This document shows positions 21,398 to 24,228 of a DNA stretch of 47,155 nucleotides, piece after piece; within the stretch, counting starts at the first letter, position 1; each line of letters begins with the position of its first letter. This DNA is from Lachnospiraceae bacterium (GTDB lineage Bacteria > Bacillota > Clostridia > Lachnospirales > Lachnospiraceae), in assembly GCA_017453065.1 (NCBI GenBank), contig JAFTKW010000023.1, forward strand, positions 1 through 47,155. Reading direction: 5' to 3'. The notes beneath the pieces are model-generated. The model had not been told where the DNA came from. It worked only from the letters and a program-made list of their open reading frames with translations, and ran no database searches. Made by a program: the position numbers and the translations under genes.

Positions 21398-22654
21398 ATG
21401 TCTAGTTTAAGTAAATTTGATTTTTGTCCTAAATGTGGGGCACTGGCAAGAGACGGGGTTTGCCAGAGTTGCGGATATGTAAATCCAGCAAGTGTGCCAA
21501 AGCAGCCAGTGCAGCAACCACAGCCGCAGCAGGGCTGGCAAGCGCAGCAGCCACAGCAGAGCTGGCAAGGCCAGCAGCAGAATGTATCTGCATTCCAGAA
21601 CAATGGAAATGCAGGCTTTGTGGCACCGCCACAGGATAGTTATAATCAGTACCAGTATCAAGCTTACAACAATCCAGCTTTGCAAAAACCGCAGAAGAAC
21701 AACAATGCATTGGTCATCATTTTGGTGATGGTGGTTATTATTTTAGGATTGTTGTTTACCTGTTGCGCTGGAAGTTTGGGCATGTATATGTTGGACATAG
21801 ATGTGGACAGCTTATTGAGTGAGGAATCCAAATCAATTTATCCATGGGAAGAGGATGACGAAGAGGAGGAAGTTTCCAAGTCATACGAAGGCTCAGACAA
21901 GAAATATGCGGAGCCTTCTAAAGAAGTGGAAGAGGAAAAAGAGAGTTCTACTGCAACTTCTTCTAGTGAGGAAGAGGAGATGACAAAGCCTACTCAAGAT
22001 TTGGAAGGGTTAGCAGAAGGAAAGTATTACGAAGCTCCTTACAATGCACTTAGAGATGACCTGATTTATGGCATTGATTTTGAAACGGGACAGCATATAC
22101 CAGAACAGTATGATGGAAGAGTTACCATACAGGTAGAATATCCACAACTGACAGGTGCGGCTCCTAATTTGGATATCATTAATGCATATTTGGAAAGAGA
22201 GTATTCTTATTTTTATGATTATTTCGTGGAAACCTATGAGCCATACATAACAGAGGAAAGCATTTTCTATGTGGTGGCACAGGGATATGTAACTTACATG
22301 GATGAAGAAGTACTCAGTGTCGTTTTCCATGAGGAACTGTATATTGATGGAGAAAGTATGATTCAGTATTACTGTCTCAATTTCGATATGACAGATGGGG
22401 TAATATTAAACAATGTTGATATTCTAAATCTGGATCTGGATTTCGCAATTGAATTTCGCAGAAGAGAAATCATCGAAAATGGAGATGAGTGGCTGACTGA
22501 CTATACTGACCAAGAAATCCTAGAAATGCTTAAAGATATAGACCACTTGGTTATCTTCTACACCCCTATGGGCATGGAGGTAGGCTTAAATCTCTACGAC
22601 GTAGTCCTGTACATGACCTACTCAGACTATGAGAAGTTCTTGAAATTATATTAG
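21398..22654 (+). CDS. Zinc-ribbon membrane protein with extracellular DUF3298/RsiV-like domain
   Basis: 418 residues. A small zinc ribbon lies at the start (FCPKCG, Cys10/Cys13, then CQSCGYV, Cys22/Cys25). A Gln/Pro-rich stretch about 30-90 follows, then one membrane helix (about 104-130, ALVIILVMVVIILGLLF). An acidic Ser/Glu linker and a C-terminal domain of about 200 residues complete it. The last part (RVTIQVEYPQLTG, then a Tyr-rich region and VVFHEELYIDG) resembles the DUF3298/RsiV-type domain, but the match is by eye. The topology would place the ribbon in the cytoplasm and the big domain outside. A sensor or cell-envelope role is possible; function is unknown. Ribosome site GAGGGAGAG. 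Confidence 0.75.
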   Translation: MSSLSKFDFCPKCGALARDGVCQSCGYVNPASVPKQPVQQPQPQQGWQAQQPQQSWQGQQQNVSAFQNNGNAGFVAPPQDSYNQYQYQAYNNPALQKPQKNNNALVIILVMVVIILGLLFTCCAGSLGMYMLDIDVDSLLSEESKSIYPWEEDDEEEEVSKSYEGSDKKYAEPSKEVEEEKESSTATSSSEEEEMTKPTQDLEGLAEGKYYEAPYNALRDDLIYGIDFETGQHIPEQYDGRVTIQVEYPQLTGAAPNLDIINAYLEREYSYFYDYFVETYEPYITEESIFYVVAQGYVTYMDEEVLSVVFHEELYIDGESMIQYYCLNFDMTDGVILNNVDILNLDLDFAIEFRRREIIENGDEWLTDYTDQEILEMLKDIDHLVIFYTPMGMEVGLNLYDVVLYMTYSDYEKFLKLY

Positions 22655-22664
22655 TTGAGAAACG

Positions 22665-22815
22665 AAAAGAGGCTGATTTATATTCCTCTAAAGGGTACTT
22701 ATGAAACGTCGGTCCTTAGTGAGCGGAGCACGGAAGTGCATACGCGAACTTAGTACCGTTACGTTTCATAAGTAGCGAAAGCGGACCCGTAGAGGAATAT
22801 AAACAGCCTTTTTAT
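22665..22815 (+). ncRNA. Large nested hairpin element (candidate structured RNA with terminator outer stem)
   Basis: The outer stem pairs GGCTG(A)TTTATATTCCTCTA (22671-22690) with TAGAGGAATATAAACAGCC (22790-22808), 19 pairs with one bulged A. A-rich sequence to the left and TTTTTATTTTT to the right extend it as in a terminator. Inside, GGGT/ACCC (22693-22696, 22785-22788) and the perfect 13-bp ACTTATGAAACGT/ACGTTTCATAAGT (22697-22709, 22761-22773) follow. A mini-hairpin GC-GAAA-GC occurs in the right side (22775-22782). Next are a 9-of-11 helix CGGTCCTTAGT/ACTTAGTACCG (22710-22720, 22748-22758) and a terminal GCAC-GGAA-GTGC (22728-22739). Both small loops are GNRA tetraloops. I cannot name an RNA family for it. 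It may act as the terminator of the upstream gene, a stable small RNA, or a palindromic repeat element. Confidence 0.6.
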
Positions 22816-22839
22816 TTTTAGTTTTACAATTTACTATCC

Positions 22840-22933
22840 CTTGCCATTGCTTTGTAGATATGATACATTTTCTATAGGCAAGAGATTTATCCGCAACTTG
22901 CCAACACATTCTTTTGCTCCCAAGGGAGCCAAA
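22840..22933 (+). other. Hairpins with mutually exclusive pairing upstream of recA
   Basis: CTTGCC at 22840-22845 and again at 22897-22902 can each pair with the single GGCAAG at 22877-22882. A separate hairpin follows: GCTCCC/GGGAGC over AA (22916-22929), lengthened by TTT/AAA. The remaining bases of the 22655-23166 gap are AT-rich; no ORF with convincing support is seen there. The structure could be chance or an unrecognised leader. Confidence 0.35.
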
Positions 22934-23051
22934 TCACACTTATTCTTGGTCTTTCCGGCAATTCGCCAATAATCCAATAAGTGGAAAATGTTTACAAATT
23001 TATATGGCGAAGGAGGGATGCCTTTGAGGGAAGTTTATGGGACATTCAAAA

Positions 23052-23068
23052 TGTTTATAATATAAACA
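23052..23068. promoter_or_regulatory. Perfect 17-bp palindrome upstream of recA
   Basis: TGTTTATA-A-TATAAACA is an exact inverted repeat about 30 nt upstream of the recA -35. It looks like an operator; the cognate protein is not evident. It also contains a TATAAT without a good -35. Confidence 0.45.
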
Positions 23069-23099
23069 TAAAAAATGCTAGATAAATTGTAGAAAAGCA

Positions 23100-23128
23100 T
23101 TGACAAAATCGAACATTTGTTTTATTCT
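23100..23128 (+). promoter_or_regulatory. recA promoter
   Basis: TTGACA (23100-23105), 17 nt, TATTCT (23123-23128). A LexA-like box occupies the spacer. Confidence 0.8.
23110..23123. promoter_or_regulatory. LexA (SOS) box 1
   Basis: CGAACATTTGTTTT matches the Bacillota consensus CGAACRNRYGTTYC at 12 of 14 positions. It lies between the -35 and -10 of the recA promoter, so LexA would block polymerase. Confidence 0.75.
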
Positions 23129-23134
23129 AATTCT

Positions 23135-23148
23135 AGAACAAATGTTCC
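23135..23148. promoter_or_regulatory. LexA (SOS) box 2
   Basis: AGAACAAATGTTCC matches the same consensus at 13 of 14 positions. It lies 25 nt downstream of the first, around the transcription start. Confidence 0.8.
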
Positions 23149-23166
23149 TTATGAAGGAGATTAATT

Positions 23167-24228
23167 ATGAATAAAGAAGAAAAACTGAAAGCATTAGACG
23201 CCGCTTTGGTGCAGATTGAGAAACAGTATGGTAAGGGAGCAGTTATGAAACTGGGAGACCCTATGAGCCAGATGAGCGTAGAGACTATTCCAACCGGTTC
23301 CTTGAGTCTTGATATTGCACTGGGTCTTGGTGGAATTCCTAAGGGACGTATTATTGAAATCTATGGTCCTGAATCCAGTGGTAAGACTACAGTTACCTTA
23401 CATATGATTGCCGAAGTGCAGAAGCGTGGAGGTATCGCAGGCTTCATTGATGCAGAACATGCACTGGATCCTGTTTATGCTAAGAATATCGGTGTTGATA
23501 TTGACAACTTGTATATTTCACAGCCTGACAACGGTGAGCAGGCATTGGAGATAGCAGAGACGATGGTTCGTTCTGGTGCCCTTGATATCGTTATCGTTGA
23601 CTCTGTAGCTGCATTGGTTCCAAAGGCGGAAATCGATGGTGAGATGGGAGATTCCCATGTGGGCTTACAGGCAAGATTGATGTCTCAGGCGCTTCGTAAA
23701 CTGACTAGTGTGGTTAGCAAGACCAACTGTACTATCGTATTTATCAACCAGCTTCGTGAGAAGATTGGTATTATGTTCGGTAACCCAGAGACAACCACTG
23801 GTGGTAGAGCGTTGAAGTTCTATGCATCTGTGCGTATGGATGTAAGACGTATAGAGTCTTTGAAGCAGGGCGGAGAAGTAATTGGTAACCGTACCAGAGT
23901 CAAAGTGGTAAAGAACAAAGTTGCTCCTCCTTTTAAAGAGGCAGAGTTCGATATTATGTTTGGTGAAGGTATTTCTTCTGTAGGAGATATCTTAGATTTA
24001 GCAGCGGAAAACGGCATTATTGTAAAATCAGGTGCTTGGTATGCATACCAGGGAGAGAAGATTGGACAGGGTCGCGAGAATGCGAAGCAGTATTTGAAAG
24101 ACAATCCAGCAATTTGTGCAGAAGTAGAACTTAAGATTAGAGAACTCTTCGGTTTGGACACAGACTGTATGGAAGGCTCGGAAGAGGATTCTAAATCTAA
24201 GAAAGCTAAGTCTGGGAAAGCAGAGTAA
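23167..24228 (+). CDS. recA: Recombinase RecA
   Basis: 353 residues. Forms ATP-dependent filaments on single-stranded DNA, drives strand exchange and triggers LexA self-cleavage. The Walker A motif is GPESSGKTT (residues 67-75). The Walker B region is [12 protein letters not shown]; the MAW-like [15 protein letters not shown] and loop L2 region with [14 protein letters not shown] are normal. The acidic/lysine-rich tail ([16 protein letters not shown]) is typical. Ribosome site GAAGGAGA. The stop shares a base with recX, and two LexA boxes control the promoter. Confidence 0.98.

Follow-up and report, generated by a model that had tools for sequence, protein, structure and literature searches.

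An intergenic hairpin in a Lachnospiraceae genome is one copy of a dispersed, mobile-looking family of folded repeats

Between the stop codon of a protein-coding gene (21398-22654) and a gene that we take to be recA (23167-24228), the stretch of Lachnospiraceae DNA analyzed here (the window; all 47,155 nucleotides of contig JAFTKW010000023.1) carries a sequence that appeared to an initial annotation to fold from end to end, and for which it proposed a stable small RNA, a terminator of very great size, or a mobile repeat of palindromic form. The hairpin occupies 22666-22813 (+), and the fold is real: that of 22650-22830 (+) was predicted at -79.3 kcal/mol, compared with a mean of -37.4 (sd 3.7) for shuffled sequences (z = -11.26; none of 200 shuffles was as stable), and the opposite strand of the same interval gave a z of -10.18. 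The predicted fold contains all of the inner parts that had been described, namely, a GGGT/ACCC helix (22693-22696 with 22785-22788), an exact 13-pair helix (P2), a GCAC/GTGC tip closed by a GGAA loop, and a GC-GAAA-GC mini-hairpin branching from one side. The outer stem (P1) has the single bulge ascribed to it (22676) but comprises 24 pairs rather than 19. Inward of P2, the prediction places CGGT/ACCG and then a stretch interrupted by U.U and G.A mismatches. The parts are listed in Table 1; the candidate left terminal repeat and the upstream gene's stop codon overlap.

Table 1. Parts of the hairpin and its putative ends in the window
Feature	Coordinates	Strand	Basis and remarks
Left terminal inverted repeat, degenerate, TATTAGTTGAGAAACG	22649-22664	+	By-eye comparison with the G017 repeat TAGGTAATTGCGAAAC; tentative
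Outer stem P1, 5' arm, bulge at 22676	22666-22690	+	Predicted fold; sequence copy-specific
Conserved core	22691-22790	+	Match to covariance model R1, 99.8 bits
Inner helix P2, 5' arm (13 exact pairs with 22761-22773)	22697-22709	+	Predicted fold
Conserved CTTAGYGAG	22715-22723	+	Alignments of copies
Tip hairpin GCAC-GGAA-GTGC (22728-22731/22736-22739, loop GGAA)	22728-22739	+	Fold; varies among copies
Conserved CGARCTTAGT, opposite 22715-22723	22745-22754	+	Alignments of copies
Inner helix P2, 3' arm	22761-22773	+	Predicted fold
Side mini-hairpin GC-GAAA-GC, GNRA loop	22775-22782	+	Fold; GNRA in 108/113 aligned rows
Outer stem P1, 3' arm	22790-22813	+	Predicted fold
T-tract CTTTTTATTTTT	22808-22819	+	Window copy only, among copies compared by eye
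Right terminal inverted repeat, degenerate, TAGTAAATTGTAAAACT	22821-22837	-	By-eye comparison with the G017 repeat; tentative

The initial annotation could match the hairpin to no known family, in agreement with Rfam, which yielded no match at gathering score in the window and nothing up to an E value of 1 at 22600-22900; for nine other loci, the single match was to a plant microRNA family, below gathering (27.8 bits versus 76). Nor did we find a description of the element in the open-access literature. By DNA search, two further copies (77-79% identity) were detected in the same genome and weak matches in 3 of 60 relatives. We then employed a covariance model, R1, of 98 core positions, for which six copies were aligned and the structure set by hand from the same six copies. 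R1 returned 11 matches at E ≤ 0.001 in the window's own genome, the window copy included (the weakest of the 10 others at 9.3e-4), as well as one at E 2.5 that is probably due to chance, so the hairpin is not a single-copy sequence, a point that the annotation had left to be checked. Five matches in this genome lie within 8.3 kb (G000:C7:128412-136671, in locus L071), one of them on the other strand. Within the genus, 43 of 61 genomes (own genome included) had matches, copy number ranging from 0 to at least 66 per genome (the latter from 67 scored candidates); genome G085 gave at least 140, with 150 of its 277 candidates scored. Searches of the order (61 of 392 genomes and 31 of 173 genera with matches, all 61 genomes in the family Lachnospiraceae) and of the class (10 of 391 genomes, every one already among those 61) undercount, because their filters were strict and just 10 candidates were scored per genome. 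A pattern scan of named genomes found at least 118 stretches, and the 80 matches listed include Lachnospiraceae, Butyrivibrio, Acetatifactor, Agathobacter, unplaced Clostridiales, and one Bacteroides. Thus, the window hairpin is one copy of a dispersed, mobile-looking folded repeat family of Lachnospiraceae, termed here the A element.

Core and stem together measure about 90-220 bp. The core reads GGTAC-N7-ACGTC-N4-CTTAGYGAG-[tip]-CGARCTTAGT-N4-...-ACG-N7/8-GTAGC-GNRA-GCGTACC, with a fixed fold and a variable tip; some copies (loci L244, L307, L053, and L072) have a small hairpin, CAAAGTCATGCNNGCATGACTTG, inserted in the tip, which is present in L244 and absent from its counterpart L263. Compensatory changes, which the annotation had proposed looking for, proved abundant. 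In an alignment of 117 matches from 95 sources (A2; 113 distinct rows), which was fitted to R1 and so leans towards the model, 88.9% of cells pair and 29 of 31 pairs show double changes; double-changed cells numbered 630, whereas shuffles gave 183 (sd 13) and sliding the partners no more than 130. A MAFFT alignment of the six copies (A1), from which the structure itself was drawn, gave 23 such cells versus 7.6 in shuffles, above all shuffles. Outside the compensated pairs, positions of CTTAGYGAG and CGARCTTAGT are at least 92% conserved in A2, a figure biased upward because both motifs were part of the pattern by which many of the A2 loci had been retrieved. The side loop was absent from that pattern, and 108 of 113 rows have a GNRA sequence there (GAGA 39, GAAA 31, GCAA 16, GGAA 12, GGGA 6, GCGA 4); two of the five remaining rows are empty. 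RNA tetraloops of this kind have a purine at the third position, and the third-position purine of the side loop points to RNA, without proving it. Together with the G.A and U.U mismatches, the loop suggests recognition of the core in the form of a folded single strand, which may be RNA.

The outer stem behaves differently, in that its arms vary far more than the core within one genome, yet remain complementary. More specifically, the six copies in genome JAJQAC differ by a median of 6 of 75 core bases versus 7 of 24 arm bases, and of the positions compared, 97 have changed in both arms and 9 in one; in genome G017 (14 of 16 copies taken in), the corresponding counts were 228 and 68, although counts of this type are not independent, as copy pairs share history. 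Across genomes, G017 and G085 share 17 locus pairs that are 88-95% identical, in which 16 element instances were scored: of 392 P1 pairs, 21 had changed on both sides and still paired, 1 had changed on both sides and was broken, and 18 had changed on one side, with the double changes clustering in a few loci. Old copies also decay, as seen from 17 single changes that broke a core pair in the same comparison (11 others gave G-U). Between L278 and L075, a stretch comprising the outer arms and the 3' end has been swapped for that of another subfamily with the flanks conserved, as gene conversion between copies would do. Mismatch counts, which in P1, P2, and the core alike are limited by folding noise and shared ancestry, differ among the helices. 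In the P1 region of 163 copies, we counted 5500 Watson-Crick pairs, 90 G-T, 70 A-C, and 109 other mismatches, giving no clear excess of G-T over A-C (p = 0.13); 26 distinct tRNAs of G085, used as a control, gave G-U in 26 of 311 paired cells and no A-C, making G-U rarer in P1 than in tRNA stems (90/70 versus 26/0, p = 1.6e-6). For P2, we obtained 23 G-T and 5 A-C, an excess that points to selection on P2 at the RNA level, and for the core and P2 columns of A2 together, 69 G-T and 52 A-C, with a single column contributing 29 of the A-C.

The arrangement of copies bears on how they spread. Among 133 copies with genes on both sides, 116 had no open frame across them and 17 had a frame of at least 70 codons, according to simple gene calls. 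Among the 129 single copies, those between co-directional genes are almost evenly split (47 sense, 46 antisense); convergent genes flank 23 others and divergent genes 13 (p = 0.13 for the last two). A role as a cis-regulator was rejected on the absence of an orientation preference. Neighbors within 600 bp in G085 stand head to head in 24 of 25 pairs and tail to tail in none (gaps of 61-413 bp in the head-to-head pairs), and further loci supplied 15 head-to-head pairs within 600 bp and again none tail to tail, with same-strand neighbors in L025, L182, and L043. Members of head-to-head pairs (L131, L158, L183, and others) often have different stems and unlike spacers; at L025 (999-1585), there is a tandem of three copies on the same strand, spaced by 251 bp. 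In G017, the units are about 205 bp long and end in inverted repeats of about 16 bases, the pattern for which hits 66 sites versus 2 for a control. Such repeats exceed the control in G017 and G027 and are at control level in G000 (the window's genome), G032, G077, and G082. Direct repeats of about 10-12 bp flank, by eye, a few G017 copies (e.g., L242, L258), and by eye the window copy has no clear target duplication. Many copies, both orientations, a mostly intergenic location, and terminal inverted repeats in some lineages support the annotation's option of a palindromic mobile repeat.

A second structured element, B, forms a long hairpin of about 142 bp and has terminal inverted repeats in common with A in G017. 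It has the core CCGAAGC[A]GTGGCAAGTCGCC (e.g., L056 785-926), and the exact pattern hits 37 sites in G017, 11 in G085, and 6 in G027, and none in 15 of 18 genomes. In 10 of 20 G017 loci with A, B lies 5' of it on the same strand.

Searches for a mover were negative within their scope. Full-length PF01797 (Y1_Tnp/RAYT) was found in none of 10 element-bearing genomes, with fragments in G079 and G085, and in 5 of 11 genomes without an R1 match, several genomes in this comparison being incomplete; mobilization by RAYT/IS200 is ruled against by its absence from all 10. An autonomous partner did not emerge from 266 flanking open reading frames, in which the largest group of similar proteins had 5 members and looked like an ABC-type ATPase, and the pattern sites of G017 included no inverted-repeat pair 1-3 kb apart. 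The genes enclosed by the two wide pairs at L144 and L185 (presumably those for thiamine pyrophosphokinase and pantothenate synthetase) look metabolic. Carriage by phage or plasmid was likewise dismissed: blastn gave no match and viral contigs no exact pattern match, a search by which relatives could be missed. All 17 G017/G085 locus pairs carry A in both members with no insertion difference, the loci having been chosen for bearing A.

Taken together, we consider it probable that the A element is a non-autonomous dispersed repeat of the MITE/REPIN-like kind, the folded core of which is recognized by a putative factor. Such a factor would recognize the core as a single strand, be it RNA or single-stranded DNA/cruciform, during spread, and P1 would need self-complementarity only. 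Arm-to-arm correction by template switching, a process described between the arms of inverted repeats in the accessible text of PMC8604942, together with gene conversion between copies, could maintain perfect Watson-Crick pairing in P1 despite the drift of its sequence.

An ordinary MITE, moved through its terminal inverted repeats by a DDE-type transposase, with an inner fold idle in movement and arms kept alike by template switching only, appears unlikely. Inverted repeats common to A and the unrelated B in G017, in units of different length, would fit it, as would the strand symmetry of the P1 mismatches; against it, the core occurs in 31 of 173 genera and the repeats exceed the control only in two of six genomes, the head-to-head order would go unexplained, and the asymmetries of the U.U and G.A mismatches and of the side loop persist, although template switching by itself would remove them. 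Rather unlikely, too, is a functional structured host RNA present many times over, be it a small RNA or an mRNA-stability element, with each copy selected as RNA at its site: the covariation, the GNRA side loop, the conserved U.U and G.A mismatches, and the G-T excess in P2 all speak for it, yet it sits poorly with equal numbers of sense and antisense copies, a nearly strand-symmetric P1 in which G-U is rare relative to tRNAs, and copy numbers that run from zero upward within one genus. We regard as doubtful a further scheme in which the element multiplies via a folded single strand (RNA and reverse transcription, or single-stranded DNA) and snap-back copying remakes one outer arm, such that each copy lineage would have its own drifting, exactly complementary arm; there, the GNRA loop and the G.A/U.U core would be the recognition site of a putative protein and the head-to-head pairs the replicating unit. 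That the hairpin evolved where it stands, as an outsized intrinsic terminator for the upstream gene, is highly improbable, as its position directly after the stop codon and its T-tract (22808-22819) are set against other copies that by eye have no T-tract 3' of the outer stem and occur in both orientations, and against a consensus terminator scan of 22400-23300 that, allowing only loops of 3-8 bases, found nothing.

The poly-T to which the initial annotation had drawn attention is thus present in the window but is not a trait of the family, and with this tract the window copy may act to end transcription arriving from upstream. To place this copy, we compared recA loci: 57 relatives had a recA match, 29 of the loci were fetched, and in 1 of these 29 (L103) R1 matched upstream of recA, but weakly; this match is oppositely oriented and adjoins another gene. 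G081, the nearest relative by RecA (91% identical), shows the end of the same upstream gene followed directly by terminator-like sequence, with no element, and comes closest to an empty site, although the junction is not readable base by base. The idea that the element inserted into an ancestral terminator ahead of recA was considered and found weak. Of the 29 relatives, 13 have the right arm of this terminator with the left arm nearby (one poor) and 6 have the right arm alone in a similar place; the window has the right arm alone, and its missing left arm is therefore not special. The recA promoter region (23111-23150) contains a long inverted repeat with GAACAAATGTTC, which we take to be like a LexA box and which is also found in many of the relatives compared at this locus.

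Among known systems, REPs are described in the accessible text of PMC3116915 and PMC3733652 as dispersed intergenic palindromes of 20-40 bp, mostly head-to-head dimers with compensatory arm changes (for REP/REPIN elements with RAYT transposases, see also what is accessible of PMC2817692); the word Firmicutes is absent from the accessible text of PMC3733652. Like these, A is dispersed, stands head to head, and has compensatory arms; unlike them as so described, it is about 90-220 bp long and contains internal loops as well as a side hairpin with a GNRA loop, and no full-length Y1/RAYT accompanies it in the 10 element-bearing genomes. Size, internal core, and missing RAYT keep the A element, as tested, out of the REP family. 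In size, intergenic placement, and foldability, it resembles bcr1 of Bacillus cereus, ERIC, and YPAL, which available descriptions give as 100-200 bp, intergenic, foldable, and sometimes transcribed in UTRs (PMC3446304, PMC2267715, PMC2229807); the hosts differ, and by those descriptions A is set apart, with covariation of its pairing measured. It is also a hairpin-forming repeat like the mitochondrial double hairpin or repetitive hairpin-forming elements, which are organellar and have been proposed in the accessible part of PMC2800124 to result from multiple invasions. Because of the variable tip, an integron attC site, i.e., a folded recombination site that an integron integrase uses, was considered as well. 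We infer that the A element works like REPIN, bcr1, and ERIC elements; it behaves in a REPIN-like manner in genomes that yielded no full-length RAYT.

The A element is thus an abundant repeat, without a gathering-score Rfam match, in a major family of gut bacteria. As much of the covariation in P1 is Watson-Crick only and nearly strand-symmetric, it is a natural case in which to ask to what extent covariation by itself demonstrates selection on RNA.
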